From: Candidatus Falkowbacteria bacterium CG10_big_fil_rev_8_21_14_0_10_39_11
GTDB taxonomy: Bacteria; Patescibacteriota; Patescibacteriia; UBA11705
Assembly (NCBI GenBank): GCA_002773615.1
Contig: PFAP01000007.1
Coordinates: forward strand, 1,821 to 46,298
Direction of reading: 5' to 3'
DNA length: 44,478 nt
Shown here: positions 2,047-37,329 of the stretch, in pieces
Numbering within the stretch: position 1 is the first letter of the stretch
Layout: every line of letters starts with the position of its first letter
Made by a program: the position numbers and the translations under genes
Notes under the pieces: generated by a model
Told to the model about the DNA's origin: nothing
Database searches by the model: none
The model's input: only the letters and a program-made list of their open reading frames with translations

Positions 2047-2331
2047 ATGGCAAAGAAATGCGAAAAGTGCGGGGCGCCGATCGAAGGCTTCCTGTCCAAG
2101 ATTTCCGGTTTTATGGGGGTAAAGAAGTCGGAAACAGATCCAAATAAATGTACAAAGTGTGTTACCGGTGATACTCATGAACATTTAGAAGAAACAAAAG
2201 TTGAACATACCGAGGCACCAAAAGTTGAAATGAATGGAACCGAAGATGTCGCTGATGAGATTCAAGAGGAAAAAGAAATGGAACCAACGGAGGAAAAATC
2301 TGAAACTCAAGAAAATCAACCCCAAATGTAA
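2047..2331 (+). CDS. Hypothetical protein with Cys pairs (zinc-ribbon-like) and acidic tail
   Basis: CEKCGAP...CTKC pairs followed by a Glu-rich tail; followed by a hairpin terminator. Confidence 0.6.
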   Translation: MAKKCEKCGAPIEGFLSKISGFMGVKKSETDPNKCTKCVTGDTHEHLEETKVEHTEAPKVEMNGTEDVADEIQEEKEMEPTEEKSETQENQPQM

Positions 2332-2338
2332 CGCTAAA

Positions 2339-2369
2339 AAAAGTACTCATGTCATGAGTGCTTTTTTGT
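2339..2369 (+). terminator. Rho-independent terminator
   Basis: agtactcat-gtc-atgagtgct followed by tttttt. Confidence 0.75.
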
Positions 2370-2450
2370 TGCCGTCGTAATAAATTTATGTAATAAATTG
2401 TATAAATCGTCAATATAGGCGAGAGAGTATTTTTTTGATAAAATATAGTT

Positions 2451-2477
2451 TAGTAATGAGTAAAGAGTAAAGAGTAA
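2451..2477. repeat. Left arm of imperfect inverted repeat flanking the four-helix-bundle gene
   Basis: tagtaatgagtaaagagtaaagagtaa; approximate reverse complement at 2851-2880. Confidence 0.6.
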
Positions 2478-2480
2478 TTT

Positions 2481-2816
2481 ATGAAGATTAATGAATTTTA
2501 TGATTTAATTGCTTGGAAAAAGGCTTATTCTTTGGTTCTAAATATTTACAAAATAACAAAGGGACTACCGAAAGAAGAGGTTTACGGCTTGATATCTCAA
2601 ATGAGACGAGCTGCTATTTCAATTACAGCAAATATTGCTGAAGGTTTTTCAAGGTACCATTTTAAAGACAAGGTTCGTTTTTACTATCAATCAAGGGGTT
2701 CATTGTCAGAGGTTTTGAATTTTGTTTTAGTAATAAGAGATTTGTCATATATAAATGAGTTTGAATCTGGAAGGTTAATTGAAGATTGCATAGAAATTAA
2801 GAAACGGATTGATTAG
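2481..2816 (+). CDS. Four-helix-bundle protein (S23/IVP, avd-like family)
   Basis: DLIAWKKAYSLVLNIYKITKGLPKEEVYGLISQMRRAAISITANIAEGFSR is the family signature. Confidence 0.9.
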   Translation: MKINEFYDLIAWKKAYSLVLNIYKITKGLPKEEVYGLISQMRRAAISITANIAEGFSRYHFKDKVRFYYQSRGSLSEVLNFVLVIRDLSYINEFESGRLIEDCIEIKKRID

Positions 2817-2850
2817 ATCGATTGAGAAACAAAGCTAGCCAAGTTACATT

Positions 2851-2880
2851 TTACGTTTTACTCTTTACTTTTTATTACTA
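2851..2880. repeat. Right arm of imperfect inverted repeat flanking the four-helix-bundle gene
   Basis: ttacgttttactctttactttttattacta; reverse complement resembles 2451-2477. Confidence 0.6.
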
Positions 2881-2883
2881 CAT

Positions 2884-5433
2884 ATGGCTGAGCTAACCCC
2901 AATGTTTAAACAATTTTATGAAATAAAGGAAAAGTATCCCAATGATATTTTGTTTTTTCGTATGGGGGATTTTTATGAAATGTTTGGTGAGGATGCCCGG
3001 GTGGCTTCAAAAATTTTGAATATTACATTGACCAGTCGAGCCAAAGGAACTGAAAATGAAACGCCAATGTGTGGAATCCCGCATCATGCAGCGGAAGGCT
3101 ATATGGCTAAATTGACTCGGGCTGGTAAACGAGTGGCTGTTTGTGATCAGATTAGTGATCCTGCTTTGCCAGGAATAGTGAAGCGAGATGTAGTTCGAGT
3201 TGTTACTCCAGGTACAACTATGGATGAAAATGTACTGGATAATAACAATAATAATTATTTACTCAGCTTGTATTTGCAAAAAGATGTTTGGGGATTGGCG
3301 ATTTGTGATTTAACCACAGGTGAATTTCAAGCGAGTGAATTTGGTGATGTTGATATTATCAAAACAGAAGTCAATCGTTTGGATCCGAATGAAGTGATTG
3401 TGGCTCCGGAGCTATATAATGATTCACGGTATAGTGAATATGTTCAATCTTTGAATAACGTACAGGTTTATACTTTACCGGCGTATGAAAAAGCGGAAAA
3501 AAGTTTGTCTCAACAATTTAAGGTCAAAAACTTGTCCAGTTTTGGTTTGAATGAAATCCCAAATGCGATTGAAGCAGCCGGGCAGTTGCTTGGTTATTTA
3601 AAAGAAACTCAAAAGACTTCATTGGAACATTTGTTGACAATAAAAAGGTATGCGGCTGAAAATTTTATGGTGTTGGACCAGTCAACGATTAGAAATTTGG
3701 AATTGTTTCAAAATAATTGGGATTTTTCACGTCGAGGCAGTTTGATTGGTGTGCTTGATCGAACGTTAACCGCCATGGGTGCTCGGCTACTCAGAAAAAA
3801 TATTGCGTTACCATATATTAGTGTCAATCAGATTAATGCCAGACATGAGGCGGTGGAAGAATTGATCGGAGCACCAATTATTTGTGATGATTTTATTACT
3901 AATTTGAAGCAAATGGTTGATTTTGAGCGTTTAGTCGGAAAAATTGGTTGTGCTAGAGCTAATGCGCGTGATTTGGTGGCGCTCAAAAATAGTTTGGTGT
4001 TGATTGCTCCAATTGTGATGGCCATGGAGAATGTGAAAGCTGATTTATTGATAAAAATTAAGAATAATCTGCCTGAAAATACAGAACTGATTGAATTAAT
4101 TGAGAAAACTTTGGTGGATGAGCCGCCAGCTATGTTGACTGATGGCGGAATGATCAGAGAAGGAAATCATCAAGAGTTGGATGATTTACGACAGGTTTCT
4201 CGAGGTGGCAAAGAATGGCTGATGGATTATCAAACTAAGCAGATTGAAGTGACTGGTATTTCTACTTTAAAAGTAAAATTTAATAAAGTTTTTGGTTATT
4301 ATATCGAGATGAGCAAGGCTAACGCATTGTCAGCACCGGCCAATTATATTCGTAAACAAACTTTGGTTAATGCAGAACGATTTATCACACCTGAGTTAAA
4401 AGAGTATGAAGATAAAGTGTTGGGAGCAGAAGATAAAATCGGTCAAATTGAATATCAGCTGTTTAATGAACTCAGGGAAAAAGTGGTGAAATATTTTGCT
4501 GATATACAGCTCACCGCTTTGTTGATAGCAGAATTGGATGTTTTGCTTGGTTTTTCAATTATTGCAAAAGAAAATAATTATTGTCGGCCACACATGAATG
4601 ATAATGATGAAATTTTGATCAAAGAAGGTCGACACCCAGTGATTGAAACGATTGAAGATCGGTACGTCCCCAATGACGCTACTTTGGATCACAAAACTAA
4701 TGAGATGATTATATTGACCGGACCAAATATGAGTGGTAAGTCCAGTTTCTTGCGTCAGGTGGCTTTGATTACTTTGATGGCGCAGATAGGATGTTTTGTT
4801 CCAGCCAAAGAGGCAAATTTGGCGGTTGTAGATCGGATTTTTACTCGAGTCGGTGCCAGTGATAATTTGAGTCAAGGTGTGTCTACTTTTATGAATGAAA
4901 TGCAGGAAGCGGCTAATATTTTACACAACGCAACAAAACGTTCGTTGATAATTTTGGATGAAGTCGGACGAGGAACGTCAACTTTTGATGGTGTTAGTAT
5001 CGCTTGGGCGATTGTGGAATATATTCATAATGAGTTACGGGCGAAAACTTTGTTTGCTACGCATTATCATGAGTTGACAGAAATAGTTACCAAACTTGAT
5101 CGAGTTGAAAATTACTGCGTAGCGGTATCCGAAAAAGAAGGTAAGGTAGTTTTTTTGCATCAAATAGTCAAGGGAGCGACCAGTGACAGTTATGGAATAG
5201 AGGTGGCTAAATTGGCGGGATTGCCGAGTTCAATTATTGAGCGCGCCGAAGAAGTGCTTCGAGAGCTGGAAGAAAAATCAAACATGGTGATTGATAAACC
5301 AATTCAAACCAGCTTACAATTATCGCCAAAAGAAGAAAGGTTGACCAAAGCTATTGCCAAAGTTGATCCCAATACTATTACACCGCTTGAAGCGTTGCAA
5401 AAAATAGAAGAATGGCGCAAAGAATTGGAATAG
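2884..5433 (+). CDS. mutS: DNA mismatch repair protein MutS
   Basis: FFRMGDFYEMF mismatch-binding motif; Walker A TGPNMSGKSSFLRQ; LDEVGRGTSTFDG; FATHYHELTE. Confidence 0.98.
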   Translation: MAELTPMFKQFYEIKEKYPNDILFFRMGDFYEMFGEDARVASKILNITLTSRAKGTENETPMCGIPHHAAEGYMAKLTRAGKRVAVCDQISDPALPGIVKRDVVRVVTPGTTMDENVLDNNNNNYLLSLYLQKDVWGLAICDLTTGEFQASEFGDVDIIKTEVNRLDPNEVIVAPELYNDSRYSEYVQSLNNVQVYTLPAYEKAEKSLSQQFKVKNLSSFGLNEIPNAIEAAGQLLGYLKETQKTSLEHLLTIKRYAAENFMVLDQSTIRNLELFQNNWDFSRRGSLIGVLDRTLTAMGARLLRKNIALPYISVNQINARHEAVEELIGAPIICDDFITNLKQMVDFERLVGKIGCARANARDLVALKNSLVLIAPIVMAMENVKADLLIKIKNNLPENTELIELIEKTLVDEPPAMLTDGGMIREGNHQELDDLRQVSRGGKEWLMDYQTKQIEVTGISTLKVKFNKVFGYYIEMSKANALSAPANYIRKQTLVNAERFITPELKEYEDKVLGAEDKIGQIEYQLFNELREKVVKYFADIQLTALLIAELDVLLGFSIIAKENNYCRPHMNDNDEILIKEGRHPVIETIEDRYVPNDATLDHKTNEMIILTGPNMSGKSSFLRQVALITLMAQIGCFVPAKEANLAVVDRIFTRVGASDNLSQGVSTFMNEMQEAANILHNATKRSLIILDEVGRGTSTFDGVSIAWAIVEYIHNELRAKTLFATHYHELTEIVTKLDRVENYCVAVSEKEGKVVFLHQIVKGATSDSYGIEVAKLAGLPSSIIERAEEVLRELEEKSNMVIDKPIQTSLQLSPKEERLTKAIAKVDPNTITPLEALQKIEEWRKELE

Positions 5434-5440
5434 TTTTTTT

Positions 5441-5632
5441 CTCGCTATGTTGCAGTCCTCTACGAGAGACTACAACATAGCGGAAATCTTGTTTTGTGCC
5501 TCACTGCGATTACTGTTATGTTAGAGTCTCTCGTAGAGGACTCTGACACAACGAGATGTTTCGCTGTGAGAGACTACAACATAGCGGAAATCTTGTTTTT
5601 GTTTTGTGCCTCACTGTAATTTTTGTTCCTGT
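5441..5632. repeat. Cluster of palindromic repeats after mutS
   Basis: cgctatgttg...caacatagcg arms around cctctacgagagact; inverse form agagtctctcgtagaggactct; gagagactacaacatagcggaaatcttgttttgtgcctcactg present twice. Confidence 0.8.
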
Positions 5633-5799: not shown

Positions 5800-6588
5800 A
5801 TGATTTGGCAAGTTGTGTTTATCGTGTTGATTATCGGTTCTATTTTGGTTGGTTTGGGCTTGGTCTTGTCTTCTTTTATCGAAAAAGAGGATGATAGTAA
5901 GGTAGATTTGGTTTACAAGATCAGTCGAGATGTTCATAAAACTTTCGAAGGTGTGTTGCATGCGGGTCGTAAACAATATGAAACATCCAGTGTTGGTCGA
6001 AAAAATATTATCGCAGATATGGCTATTATGGCGGTGTGGGACATGGTTATAAAAAATTTATCTCACTTGGATCCAGCCACAAAAGTTCGTCAAGAAATTG
6101 AAAAGTTGGTTCAAGAAACTTTGGTCGTGGTAGATCGAGCGCGAGTCAATGCTGAGAATCATGGTTCTGTTGATGCAGAGCAATACGTTGAAAACTGTAT
6201 GGAAGAGTTGCATGATATAGCCAACTCCATTTCTGACTCAAAATCATTTGGAGAGATTAAAAAGAAAATTCTTCAAATCAAGCGTGACATGAAAATAGTT
6301 GCTGAAGCTGATAGCTTTGACGATGATGGTGATCAATCTGATTCAAAACAAACATCACAAACCAAGACATCAGATTATTATGGGATACTTGGGGTGAAAG
6401 CCACTGCGACTAAAAGTGAAATTCGAACAGCATATTTGAAATTGGCTAGTGAGTATCATCCTGACAAGTATTCTCACCTAGCAACTGAAATGCAGAAGAT
6501 TGCAAAAGAAAGGTTTCTAAAGATCAATGAAGCTTATGAAGTTCTTTCAAGCGCTCAAAAACGAAAACAATATGATCAAACACTTTGA
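5800..6588 (+). CDS. N-terminally membrane-anchored protein with C-terminal J domain
   Basis: N-terminal hydrophobic helix; DYYGILGVKATATKSEIRTAYLKLASEYHPDKYSH with HPD motif. Confidence 0.88.
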   Translation: MIWQVVFIVLIIGSILVGLGLVLSSFIEKEDDSKVDLVYKISRDVHKTFEGVLHAGRKQYETSSVGRKNIIADMAIMAVWDMVIKNLSHLDPATKVRQEIEKLVQETLVVVDRARVNAENHGSVDAEQYVENCMEELHDIANSISDSKSFGEIKKKILQIKRDMKIVAEADSFDDDGDQSDSKQTSQTKTSDYYGILGVKATATKSEIRTAYLKLASEYHPDKYSHLATEMQKIAKERFLKINEAYEVLSSAQKRKQYDQTL

Positions 6589-6602
6589 ACTGGGAGGTGA
6601 AT

Positions 6603-7415
6603 ATGAGTAGTGATATTGAAAAAAGAGAAAAATCAGGTGCAATGACTTCTGGTGGAACGGTGAGTATCTCGGCTATAAAGCGTAGACGGGAATCGGAGAA
6701 GTCTGTAAGTGATTTGGTTCGAGTGGTAAAAATGAATCCCAAGTTGCAGTTGATTCTTATGTTTGATATTACAGCCAGTATGTTTGGATATTTTGAAGAA
6801 GTGAGAAAGCATTTGGCTATGATTGTTGCGGCGGTTAGAGAAAGAGTACCACGCTCAGAATTTGCAATCTTTGCTTTTCGTAATCATGGTGATAAAGACC
6901 GTTATGATCAGATTTTTTATACCTCTCCATTGACTTCAGATTTGTCAGTCGTGAATCGAGCGATTGAGAAAATCAGAAGAGGTGGTGGGGGACCAGATGC
7001 TCTCACATGTATGGAAGAATGTCTGCGAGCAGCCAATGGATTGAGTTGGAAGGAATCAGCTCAAAAAGCCATTGTGGTTATCGGTGATATGCCGCCACAT
7101 GGAGTTCTGGATTCAGTAACAAAATGCTACGCTGGGATTGATTATCGACAGGAAGTAATTGGTTTCAAGAAAAAGCAAATTAAGGTGTATTCAGTATTTT
7201 GTGGAACTAGTCAACGAGTTCGAGATTTTTACCAGAAGATGGCCACTGATACAAATGGTCGATTTATGGATTTTGACAGTATTGAAATGATTGTTGAGCT
7301 AATTGTTGGGGTTAGCATGAAAGAAACGGGCAATTTAGATAAGTTTTTGGCTGATTTAAGGTCAAGAAAGCAGCTTAGTCCAGCCAAAGAAAGGGTCTTG
7401 AAGCTTTTGGAATAA
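6603..7415 (+). CDS. von Willebrand factor A-domain protein
   Basis: LILMFDITASMFGYFEEVRKHL has a DxTxS MIDAS motif (usual form DxSxS); RBS gggaggtg before ATG at 6603. The listed ORF start at 6585 is a TTG. Confidence 0.82.
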   Translation: MSSDIEKREKSGAMTSGGTVSISAIKRRRESEKSVSDLVRVVKMNPKLQLILMFDITASMFGYFEEVRKHLAMIVAAVRERVPRSEFAIFAFRNHGDKDRYDQIFYTSPLTSDLSVVNRAIEKIRRGGGGPDALTCMEECLRAANGLSWKESAQKAIVVIGDMPPHGVLDSVTKCYAGIDYRQEVIGFKKKQIKVYSVFCGTSQRVRDFYQKMATDTNGRFMDFDSIEMIVELIVGVSMKETGNLDKFLADLRSRKQLSPAKERVLKLLE

Positions 7416-7453: not shown

Positions 7454-7574
7454 TGTCATGCTGAACTAGTTTCAGCATCTCCATCTAGTTGACTACTGAA
7501 TGGAGACCCTGAAATAATACCGGATCAAGCCTGCCTACCGGCAGGCAGGTCCGGCACAAGATTCAGGGTGACAA
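7454..7574. repeat. Dispersed REP-like palindromic repeat (copy R1)
   Basis: tgtcatgctgaactagtttcagcatctcc...ccctgaa...attcagggtgacaa, with nested cctgcctaccggcaggcagg at 7530-7549. Confidence 0.85.
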
Positions 7575-7664
7575 CGAGAGAGGAAATAAAAAAAGTGAAA
7601 TAATTATCAAACACTAGATTTTGTTTATAATTAGTCAAATTTTTGTAGTTGTTGTTATGATCTA

Positions 7665-7693
7665 TTGACAAATCAAAAAATGTATGCTATAAT
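7665..7693 (+). promoter_or_regulatory. Consensus sigma70-type promoter driving the structured RNA
   Basis: TTGACA (7665-7670), 17-nt spacer, TATAAT (7688-7693). Confidence 0.85.
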
Positions 7694-7699
7694 GGAATA

Positions 7700-8540
7700 T
7701 TAACAATCAAGATTGGTTTTAATGAATTGATGCAGATGGGGGGGATTTTACAACCCCTGGCTTTTTCCACGTGGAGGCAATTGCCAAAGCGTGCCTGTCT
7801 GCATCAGCTCTTTTGAAACTAAGTTTGGGTGCCGTAAAGGCTCATTTGGGTTCCTTTGGGAGTCTGGGTGTGTGAAACGGCGTCCCACTTTTAAATTAAT
7901 CGTTGGGGTGTTTGCCGAGGAGGTTTCTGACGGCGCGTTGAGCCGACGGTGGGTCCACAGGTGCTTTGAGTGGAACCCGTCAGGGCAACGTCTGAGACTG
8001 AATCGGCCACCCCACTTTGAAAAATACGAGCGGCCCTCAGATTGGATGGTCGGTGGAACGCAAGGGATCTATCTTAGTCGCGACGGGCTGCCAGTCAGTC
8101 TCGTGTAGCGCCCTAGGAAGGTACTCTTGCAATCGGGGTTTGGCTCCCCAAGAGACGTCTATATAGACGTCAAAGGATAACCGACAGAGGGTATTTTGTC
8201 GGGGAAAATCCGGTTGGGGGCCAATACCCACCGGAGTGGATTGCTGCAAGGTAGTCCATCCAAGTCACGCATCCTGAAGTTTGCGGGAAGAAGGATGTGA
8301 ATCGTTAGCCTTGTAGGACCTCAAACGTGCCCGAACAAGTGTTTTGGGGGAGCGACCTACTATGGCAAGGGATCGGCTCTAGACGGTTTTCGCTAGCCGT
8401 CAAAAGTCAATTCCAATTGAATTGGCATTAAACCCGGTTTGACTGTGGTTGTAGAGAGATACCCTGATCTCTTCTGCGGTCTCCGGGAATTTTAACCTTA
8501 ATACCGTCGATGGCAACTGCTGTTGACGGTTTTCTCTTTT
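7700..8540 (+). ncRNA. Putative large structured non-coding RNA of unidentified class
   Basis: Promoter at 7665-7693, terminator at 8504-8540, no credible ORF, G-rich composition, many stems: 7728-7736/7798-7806, 7928-7933/7977-7982, 7992-7996/8036-8040, 8154-8160/8165-8171, 8181-8186/8197-8202, 8382-8386/8397-8401, 8455-8460/8467-8472. Confidence 0.75.
8504..8540 (+). terminator. Rho-independent terminator of the structured RNA
   Basis: ccgtcgatggc-aact-gctgttgacgg followed by ttttctctttt. Confidence 0.85.
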
Positions 8541-8673
8541 AAATAATTAGAAATAATTATTTATTCTTTAGAAGTTGGTTTCTTATGAATGTTTGGAAAA
8601 ACTGTCGCAGGACTTGAATCATGTTGAGTTGGACAGGATTAAGAATGTGTTGGTTGCAGGTAAGGTGCTTGTT

Positions 8674-8802: not shown

Positions 8803-10623
8803 ATGGAAAACAACAATAAGATACGAATATTACCTCAGGATCTCATCAATCAGATTGCCGCCGGAGAGGTGGTTGAGAGACCGGCTTCCGTGGTTAAAGA
8901 GTTGGTAGAAAATAGTGTGGATGCTGGAGCGCTAAATATTACCATCGAGATTGAAAATGGCGGAATCAATTTGATCCGAATCATTGATGATGGATCAGGT
9001 ATGTCTCCGGATGATGCTCGACTTTCAATTGCTCAGCATGCGACTAGCAAGATCAAAAGTCTTGATGATTTATTTGCGGTTGGAACAATGGGGTTTCGGG
9101 GCGAAGCTTTGGCCAGTATCTCATCGGTCAGTGAGTTTAGTTTGATTACTAAAAGAAAGGGTCAAGTATCGGGGGCTCAAGTTAAGGTTGTTGACAATAA
9201 AGAAGAAGTGACTGAAATTGGAGCACCGGAAGGTACCAGAATTGAAGTACGAAATCTTTTTTATAACGTTCCAGCACGCAAGAAATATTTGAAAACCGCG
9301 GTGACAGAATATAATCACATTGTGGATTTGTTTTTGCATTATTCATTGGTGTTCAAAGAAATTAATTGGAAATTGATCCACAATAGTAAGACAGTTTACA
9401 ATTTTTCTGCTACCAATGAGCATAAAAATAGAATTTTTTATGTATTGGGGCGAGAAATCTCAGAAAACTTATTGACCGTTGATTACAATGGAGTTGAATT
9501 CAAGATTAAGGGCTTTATTGGTCGGCCTCAGATTGCGAGAAACAATCGCAAGTTGCAATATCTTTTTGTGAATAATCGACCGGTGTCAGAATATGTGATT
9601 GCCAAGCAAATCAAAAATGCTTTTTCTACTTTGATTCCAAATAATTTATATCCCATTTATATATTGTCTCTCGATATTGATCCTCAAGCGGTTGATGTCA
9701 ATGTTCACCCACGAAAAATGGAAGTTAGATTTTCTGATCCGGCTAAAATTTACAAGATGGTGTATCGGATAATTTCAGAAACGTTGGATAAAAATGAATT
9801 GACCAAACAGATTCATGACTTTGAATCAACATCAGAGGTAATTTTTCGACAGCGTGACAAATTTCAGCCGTCTAATCAGACCAACGCTTCGTGGAGCAAT
9901 CAACCTTTTTTTTCCAGCCCAAGTAAACCACAGGGAACAAATCAGTTGGATTATGTGAAGAGGGGCGGACATGAAAGCATTAAAACACAAGAACATGAAA
10001 ATAATGGCGAGTTGGGTGAAGTGCAAGATCGCAATTATCATATCATTGGGCAGGTCAAGAAATCTTACATAATTGTGGAAACTGGTGGTGGACTTAAAAT
10101 ATATGATCAACATGCATCCAGCGAAAGAGTCCAATTTGAGAAATTAAAACAAGAATGGCAAGCCGGCAAAGTGATACAACAGACGTTATTGTTGCCAGAA
10201 CAAATGGAATTTCCGCCACAAGAAGTTCAAGTTTTGAATGATAATTTGGATTTTTTGCAGACAGTTGGATTTAGTCTAGAACCATTTGGCGGTCATTCAT
10301 TTGTGATGAATGCAGTGCCGCAATTATTAATAAATAAAAATGTCAAAGAGGCTTTGAATGAAATCTTGGGAATGCTAATTGAATCTCCAAATTCTGTGGG
10401 CAGTGAAAAAGATGAAATGCCAGACTCTGTGCGTCGCATTATCAATATGATGAGCTGTCGCAGCGCCGTCAAATTTGGCGACGAGTTAACTATCGATGAA
10501 ATGTATGCTCTTCTCGATAACTTGGACGCCAACGCCAGCCAATATACCTGTGTTCATGGCCGACCATGTGTGTTAGAATACAAGTATGAAGAGTTGGAAA
10601 AACTGTTTAAACGGAGGAATTAA
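8803..10623 (+). CDS. mutL: DNA mismatch repair protein MutL with endonuclease motif
   Basis: IAAGEVVERPASVVKELVENSVDAGA; GFRGEALASI; C-terminal DQHASSERVQFE matches DQHA(X)2E(X)4E; CVHGRP. Confidence 0.97.
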   Translation: MENNNKIRILPQDLINQIAAGEVVERPASVVKELVENSVDAGALNITIEIENGGINLIRIIDDGSGMSPDDARLSIAQHATSKIKSLDDLFAVGTMGFRGEALASISSVSEFSLITKRKGQVSGAQVKVVDNKEEVTEIGAPEGTRIEVRNLFYNVPARKKYLKTAVTEYNHIVDLFLHYSLVFKEINWKLIHNSKTVYNFSATNEHKNRIFYVLGREISENLLTVDYNGVEFKIKGFIGRPQIARNNRKLQYLFVNNRPVSEYVIAKQIKNAFSTLIPNNLYPIYILSLDIDPQAVDVNVHPRKMEVRFSDPAKIYKMVYRIISETLDKNELTKQIHDFESTSEVIFRQRDKFQPSNQTNASWSNQPFFSSPSKPQGTNQLDYVKRGGHESIKTQEHENNGELGEVQDRNYHIIGQVKKSYIIVETGGGLKIYDQHASSERVQFEKLKQEWQAGKVIQQTLLLPEQMEFPPQEVQVLNDNLDFLQTVGFSLEPFGGHSFVMNAVPQLLINKNVKEALNEILGMLIESPNSVGSEKDEMPDSVRRIINMMSCRSAVKFGDELTIDEMYALLDNLDANASQYTCVHGRPCVLEYKYEELEKLFKRRN

Positions 10624-10646
10624 TAATTGTTAAAGATTTTGTTTTT

Positions 10647-10831
10647 TGTCACCCTGAGGCACTCGAAGGGTGGCGCCATGCTTCGAGAGCCTCAGCATCA
10701 CAAGGGGTATATAACGTTCTTGTCAGTCTGAATTTATTTCAGACTATAAGTATCTGGTTGTTTATACCCTGAAACAAGTTCAGGGTGACAAGGTGAGGAT
10801 GTTTTGGTGGATGAGGCTCAGGGTGACAAGG
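10647..10831. repeat. Dispersed REP-like repeat cluster (copy R2)
   Basis: tgtcaccctgaggc...cttcgagagcctcagcatcacaagg...tgtcagtctgaatttatttcagactataag...ccctgaaacaagttcagggtgacaagg. Confidence 0.85.
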
Positions 10832-19540: not shown

Positions 19541-19569
19541 TTGACTAAAACGCTTGCTTTTGATAGTAT
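19541..19569 (+). promoter_or_regulatory. Promoter for the rplJ-rplL operon
   Basis: TTGACT, 17-nt spacer, TAGTAT. Confidence 0.6.
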
Positions 19570-19583
19570 ATAAGTACAATTAA

Positions 19584-19702
19584 ATTCCGTAGACTGCAAG
19601 AGTCGAAAGACTTAAATTTCTTGCATAGGGACATTATTAGCTTTTAGCTTGGAGCTGTTAGCTTTTATAAGTTTGAGTCTGCGGGAAACCGGGGATTTTT
19701 TT
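19584..19702 (+). ncRNA. Ribosomal protein L10 leader (cis-regulatory RNA)
   Basis: attccgtagactgcaagagtcgaaagacttaaatttcttgcataggga resembles the L10 leader core; CCGTAGACT (19587-19595) pairs with AGTCTGCGG (19676-19684), followed by a T7 run. Confidence 0.8.
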
Positions 19703-19826
19703 AATCACGAATCATAAAACATTCCCAATACTGCCAAAACTCAAATAATGATTGTGAGTAATAATCTATAATTTTACAAAAGTTAGGTGGTAAATTACTT
19801 TTTACTAATTACTAATAAATTGAAAT

Positions 19827-37233: not shown

Positions 37234-37329
37234 TATCATGCTGAACCTGCCTGCCGGCAGGCAGGTTCAGCATCTCCATTGGGGGGGGGCAAGTTAGAAG
37301 GAGGCCCTGAAATAAATTCAGGGTGACAA
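37234..37329. repeat. Dispersed REP-like palindromic repeat (copy R5)
   Basis: Perfect 32-nt palindrome gctgaacctgcctgccggcaggcaggttcagc at 37240-37271, then catctccatt, G9, ...gccctgaaataaattcagggtgaca. Confidence 0.9.

Follow-up and report, generated by a model that had tools for sequence, protein, structure and literature searches.

Genes and features of the locus

The window (the whole stretch of DNA analysed in this study, 44,478 bases) comes from the Falkowbacteria, bacteria that are tiny and have not been cultivated. It contains, between a gene for a vWA-like protein and mutL, a GC-rich tract which we consider very probably to be a gene for a large non-coding RNA, in the absence of any expression data. 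The features recognized in this region are listed below.

7665..7693, + strand: sigma-70-type promoter, TTGACA-N17-TATAAT, with a TG extended -10
7700..8540, + strand: very probable gene for a large structured non-coding RNA, ~835-840 nt (G+C content, fold z-score, syntenic homologue)
7703..7714, + strand: 5′-end motif ACAATCAAGATT, found de novo
7713..7822, + strand: 5′ domain (P1, P2 and joining CTCTTTTGA), helices kept in the homologue from genome G001
8135..8149, + strand: h1 hairpin GGGG-TTTGGCT-CCCC, loop recurring in relatives
8154..8213, + strand: conserved core (covariance model R1)
8210..8269, + strand: h4/h5 and conserved CCATCCAAGTCACG, inside the local alignment of the window with G001
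8503..8540, + strand: intrinsic terminator, 12-pair stem followed by TTTCTCTTTT
8803..10623, + strand: mutL, with Pfam MutL domains; it follows the RNA in 6 of 6 loci

The vWA-like gene, for whose protein neither NCBIfam nor PADLOC gave a match, overlaps a gene encoding a J-domain protein (5800-7415), and this pair also adjoins the RNA in G001. Of the order's 11 genomes, only 3 carry the vWA gene. MutL was detected at E ≤ 1e-60 in only 13 of 155 genomes of the class, and mismatch repair has seemingly been largely lost outside the order.

Several other observations concern the window itself. A dispersed intergenic palindromic repeat, TCATGCTGAAC...TTCAGCATC and ...TTCAGGGTGAC, occurs at 7454-7574, 10640-10830, 37236-37328 and elsewhere; TTCAGGGTGAC alone (with no more than 1 mismatch) is present in 8 copies, versus 0.45 expected. 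This repeat gives the strongest local fold z-score of the window (-9.6 at 7401), and one copy is located just upstream of the RNA promoter, from which it is separate. The region between mutS and the J-domain gene (5440-5620) contains repeated units, ACTACAACATAGCGGAAATCTTGTTT...TGTGCCTCACTG, together with inverted copies (fold z -8.8). An alanyl-tRNA synthetase-like protein of 444 aa is encoded at 88-1422; it matches the AlaS models only from position 157/167, and may represent a split gene or one truncated by the chosen start codon.

Transcription signals and non-coding character

A sequence-only reading of this tract had predicted a structured RNA of unrecognised class, equipped with a dedicated promoter and terminator, and the signals were confirmed. 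TTGACA-N17-TATAAT at 7665-7693 matches the consensus at 12 of 12 positions, and is the sole exact copy in the window when both strands are scanned. The hairpin and T-rich tract claimed for the 3′ end are also present; the stem (8503-8530) is composed of 12 pairs, of which 6 are G-C, with TTTCTCTTTT downstream. The 5′ start of the RNA was inferred from the -10 element and its 3′ end from the terminator.

The G+C content of 7700-8540 is 50.8%, compared with 37.6% for the whole window, and the intergenic DNA flanking the tract contains 36% and 29% G+C on its two sides. When the entire 44 kb is ranked by G+C content in 200-nt windows, the top five are all placed within the tract, and the value of 50% G+C previously reported for 8281-8340 held exactly. 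The full 841 nt fold with an energy of -336.8 kcal/mol, which corresponds to z = -5.8 against dinucleotide shuffles (controls: antisense strand, -3.0; vWA coding sequence, -1.2; mutL, -0.75). When 200-nt windows were considered, most of this excess was found to originate from both ends and from the core near 8101-8300; those across the middle (7801-8100) are individually not much below chance folding.

The longest forward-strand ORF (7791-8108; 105 aa, GTG start) has no match in Pfam. Conservation of a protein reading frame, which had been named in advance as an observation that would refute the claim, was sought in the homologous RNA of G001: no frame is conserved, and the best peptide in any frame (19 bits) is noise, versus 321 bits for the vWA protein, the positive control of this comparison with the sister species. 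The non-coding character of the tract therefore held.

A homologue in a second species

G001 represents a second species of the genus (Candidatus Falkowbacteria UBA11705). Its gene order is the same as in the window (J-domain gene, vWA gene, RNA, mutL), and its RNA, of ~967 nt, is located at 2209-3175 of locus L005. A promoter, TTGACA-N17-TGTAAT, lies in the same place as that of the window. A terminator-like hairpin was read from the sequence, and is not reported by the terminator scan.

Local alignment of the two RNAs scored 78.5, whereas shuffled sequences averaged 27 (P ~1e-10). In P1, P2, h2, h3 and the helix closing the core, 35 of 35 pairs are kept, with 9 compensatory and 5 one-sided changes. 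A lack of covariation, the second observation that had been expected to refute the claim, was thus not borne out. However, only these two sequences align over their length, so a covariation test of the R-scape type is impossible; a column-shuffle control on two rows is uninformative. A global STRAL-type alignment that yielded 62 compensatory pairs was set aside because it had no control. The criteria for a large structured non-coding RNA as a kind (long, GC-rich, non-coding, stably folded, with compensatory change) are met, on the basis of these two alignable sequences and one remote copy.

Over its whole length the large RNA is barely more similar between the two species than shuffled sequence, whereas their tmRNAs are 84% and their RNase P RNAs 80% identical; we conclude that it evolves fast outside its core. 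The proteins of the species compared are 61-71% identical. The RNA is present in single copy, and a whole-length BLAST search of 57 genomes matched solely the promoter and 5′ end of the G001 locus.

Helices and conserved motifs

The RNA begins with a short conserved motif: ACAATCAAGATT is located at RNA position 4 in the window, 7 in G001 and 4 in G010, a genome of another family, with 0, 0 and 1 mismatches, respectively. It leads into the 5′ domain, which is formed by P1, TTGGTTTT (7713-7720) pairing with GAAACTAA (7815-7822), and P2, TGATGCAGA (7728) pairing with TCTGCATCA (7798). All 8 pairs of P1 are kept in G001 with 2 one-sided changes, and all 9 pairs of P2 with 7 compensatory changes.

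The conserved core consists of hairpin h2 (8154-8171), AAAGGATAA (8172-8180) and h3 (8181-8188/8195-8202), and is closed by the helix GGAT (8175-8178)/ATCC (8208-8211). The covariance model R1 of this core, built from the window and G001 only, has 18 of 18 pairs kept in both. Across the order, the pattern AAAGGATAA...GACAG was matched only in the species of the window and in G001. Hairpin h2 is the 18-nt palindrome gacgtctatatagacgtc, whose self-complementary loop UAUAUA is replaced by a GAAA loop in G001; since this loop is not kept, the palindrome gives no support for dimerisation. Two further proposals for the core were discarded. The pairing GGGTATT/AATACCC, between the h3 loop and h4, exists in the window only and is not kept in G001, and the name UAA/GAN motif was dropped, as the opposite strand has 5-6 nt.

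Among the stems listed by the sequence-only reading, TGATGCAGA/TCTGCATCA (7728/7798), gacgtctatatagacgtc (8154-8171) and CCGACA/TGTCGG (8181/8197) were found where it had placed them. TGACGG/CCGTCA (7928/7977), described as part of a three-way junction, and CTGAG/CTCAG (7992/8036) are present as sequence; neither the junction nor CTGAG/CTCAG has any comparative support, and this part of the claim holds as sequence only.

Related tracts upstream of mutL in other genomes

With MutL as a landmark, the corresponding site was located in the order's 11 genomes, and the DNA preceding the gene was read. In G010, mutL is preceded by TTGACA-N17-TATAAT and a structured tract of 781 nt (z -6.0), with ACAGTCAAGATT at its 5′ end, at the same distance from the -10 element as ACAATCAAGATT in the window. 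The combined pattern of the promoter and TCAAGATT has 4 matches in 384 genomes of the class, three of which (G000, G001 and G010) are the RNA loci; the fourth, in G210, was rejected, being located inside the coding end of an apparent smpB. With filters off, the best match of R1 in L034 is at the predicted place of the core in G010 (19.5 bits, E ~0.001 for 14 kb). There, GGAU/AUCC of the core is changed to AGAU/AUCU, a compensatory change that was read by eye. The score is lower than chance matches of 22-24 bits elsewhere in the 384 genomes, and the G010 match therefore counts only at its expected locus. In the R1 search of all 384 genomes, G000 and G001 alone were clear, and two matches of 22-24 bits, which rest mainly on the h2 palindrome, were rejected. 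We conclude that G010 carries a third copy upstream of mutL, backed by the 5′ motif, the core motif and the covariance model.

GC-rich structured tracts running from promoter to terminator were also found directly before mutL in G003 (401 nt, z -5.9), G004 (436 nt, z -7.2) and G007 (468 nt, z -6.8), none of which has a credible Rfam match. G003 is a candidate with some sequence support: its similarity to the G001 RNA has P 6e-5, and CTCTTGAAAAC follows a perfect stem in the same place as in the 5′ domain. G004 and G007 were placed mainly by position and structure; the sequence support for G004 is the TTTGGCT hairpin, and G007 rests on position and structure only. A TTTGGCT-type loop also occurs in G001 (AGGGTTTTGGCTACCT), and this hairpin is the top de novo 12-mer motif over the six RNAs (6.4, versus 5.8 for the highest shuffle).

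The similarity between the G001 and G004 tracts (P 0.003) was not accepted as independent evidence, as antisense controls were equally high. The promoter combined with TYTTGARA was found in 40 of 384 genomes; of the loci read, only those of G000, G001 and G003 are the RNA, and the remainder proved to be ordinary genes or promoters of no relation to it. We also rejected a Ro60/Y-RNA-like connection to the vWA gene: the protein shows nothing beyond a weak vWA domain, and the RNA or a candidate for it occurs without the vWA gene in G003, G004, G007 and G010.

The remaining 5 of the 11 genomes (G002, G005, G006, G008 and G009) lack a tract of this kind before mutL, the only locus considered. As the RNA is absent from this site in 5 of 11 genomes, and is far more divergent than tmRNA or RNase P RNA, it is not a universal housekeeping RNA. 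The earlier suggestion of a housekeeping function is therefore unsupported, and that of an abundant RNA is only inferred, from the promoter.

Comparison with known RNA families

No Rfam family matched the RNA tract at the gathering score, and at E ≤ 10 the only matches within 7600-8620 were to two models of human lncRNAs, with scores that fell far short of the cut-offs. The description of the RNA as belonging to an unrecognised class has thus held after the Rfam scan. Models of group I and group II introns and of ribozymes gave no match even at E = 10. The only Rfam match in the window at the gathering score is an L10 ribosomal protein leader at 19569-19712.

Identity with RNase P RNA or tmRNA was rejected, as both are located elsewhere in the genome. 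RNase P RNA was found on contig C22 (E 3e-17; 57 bits, below the curated cut-off), and in 8 of 8 relatives tested it is also placed elsewhere; tmRNA is on C40 (144 bits), and ARAGORN detected no tRNA or tmRNA in the window. The large RNA resembles these two in being a long structured RNA with its own transcription unit, and differs from them in its divergence between the two species (80-84% identity for RNase P RNA and tmRNA, barely above shuffled for the large RNA).

Three families of large bacterial RNAs offer further likenesses. OLE RNA (~600 nt) is large, ornate, non-coding and encoded by a single gene (PMC9723947, PMC12286853); it differs in phylum and in gene neighbours, and the large RNA has no Rfam match to it and no OLE-associated protein seen adjacent. 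GOLLD RNA (~800 nt or more) has one well conserved and one poorly conserved part (PMC12286853), but is carried by phages or prophages near tRNA islands, whereas there is no tRNA in the window and no phage or Rfam match. ROOL is a large structured RNA whose partner protein is not known (PMC12286853); its context is a phage or prophage, and again there is no Rfam match. No phage or plasmid match and no IMG/VR match were obtained for the RNA studied here. The kind (large structured bacterial RNA) is known, and the family appears to be new. In the open-access literature searched, which leaves out most subscription journals, we found no large structured RNA described from the Candidate Phyla Radiation.

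Proposed function and alternative explanations

The promoter, terminator, non-coding character, structure and homologues are established by sequence; transcription, abundance, action in trans and a scaffold role are inferred, without expression data. On balance we favour an independent, trans-acting large structured RNA gene of a family not in Rfam, perhaps serving as a scaffold. Transcription of the RNA would start at a consensus sigma-70 promoter of its own and stop at the intrinsic terminator before mutL, which is apparently driven by a separate promoter. Because of the consensus promoter, the terminator and the promoter-like block before mutL, an independent transcript is likely, again without expression data. 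It is predicted to fold into a 5′ domain (P1, P2 and the CTTTTGA joint) and a central core (TTTGGCT hairpin, h2, AAAGGATAA/h3 and h4-h5) with variable arms between them, an arrangement that would fit a folded trans-acting RNA. It may act as an abundant scaffold in trans, within an RNP or as an RNA homo-oligomer, as in OLE, ROOL and GOLLD (PMC12286853, PMC9723947). Among roles in trans a scaffold is our first choice, though at slightly less than even odds; it is a guess by analogy with these RNAs, since nothing points to a partner protein.

The strongest rival, because all six loci adjoin mutL, is a very long cis-acting mutL leader, in which the terminator would be an attenuator and the RNA would sense a signal and admit transcription into mutL. 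In its favour, the RNA is directly upstream of mutL in 6 of 6 loci, even where the J-domain and vWA genes intervene between mutS and the RNA. Against it, a conserved block resembling a mutL promoter (TCCACATTGC...) is placed between the terminator and mutL in both the window and G001 (without expression data), mutL occurs without the RNA at its locus in 5 of 11 genomes, and it is the 5′ end and the centre, rather than the terminator, that carry the conserved motifs. Usual attenuators are, moreover, far shorter than 400-970 nt. We regard this explanation as unlikely.

It is also improbable that the RNA is catalytic rather than a scaffold, whether as a ribozyme of a new type or as an intron-like RNA that has diverged strongly. 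Its size, its core of several helices and the conservation of a purine-rich internal loop in two families would suit such a role, and for most large ornate RNAs the function is still open; however, there is no match to any intron or ribozyme model at E = 10, and the RNA is single copy with its own promoter and terminator. A trans-acting regulatory RNA, which would act by base-pairing or by sequestering a protein, and whose arms would diverge as only short sites matter, is similarly doubtful: rapid divergence around short conserved loops (TTTGGCT, CTTTTGA and TCAAGATT) is consistent with it, but usual base-pairing sRNAs are far smaller and less structured. The possibility of a non-functional tract (a chance GC-rich island or decayed gene), to which the near-chance folding of the middle (7801-8100) and the absence from part of the order might point, is very unlikely, given that species whose proteins are 61-71% identical share the promoter, the 5′ motif and the core at one locus, with compensatory changes, and that the same kind of tract is at the mutL locus in six genomes.

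Beyond the favoured reading of an independent trans-acting RNA, it is possible that the gene represents a new class of large RNA machine (a ribozyme or RNP core), special to this branch of the Candidate Phyla Radiation, kept at the mutS-mutL locus and changing so fast that homologues in different genera escape ordinary similarity search.

Few large structured RNAs are known from bacteria, and the functions of most of them are still open. The strong promoter gives a direct prediction for existing metatranscriptomes, and the position beside a marker gene, mutL, can expose homologous RNAs that sequence search has missed. For an organism with a genome of ~1.1-1.3 Mb, keeping a separate gene of ~840 nt for one RNA is costly.
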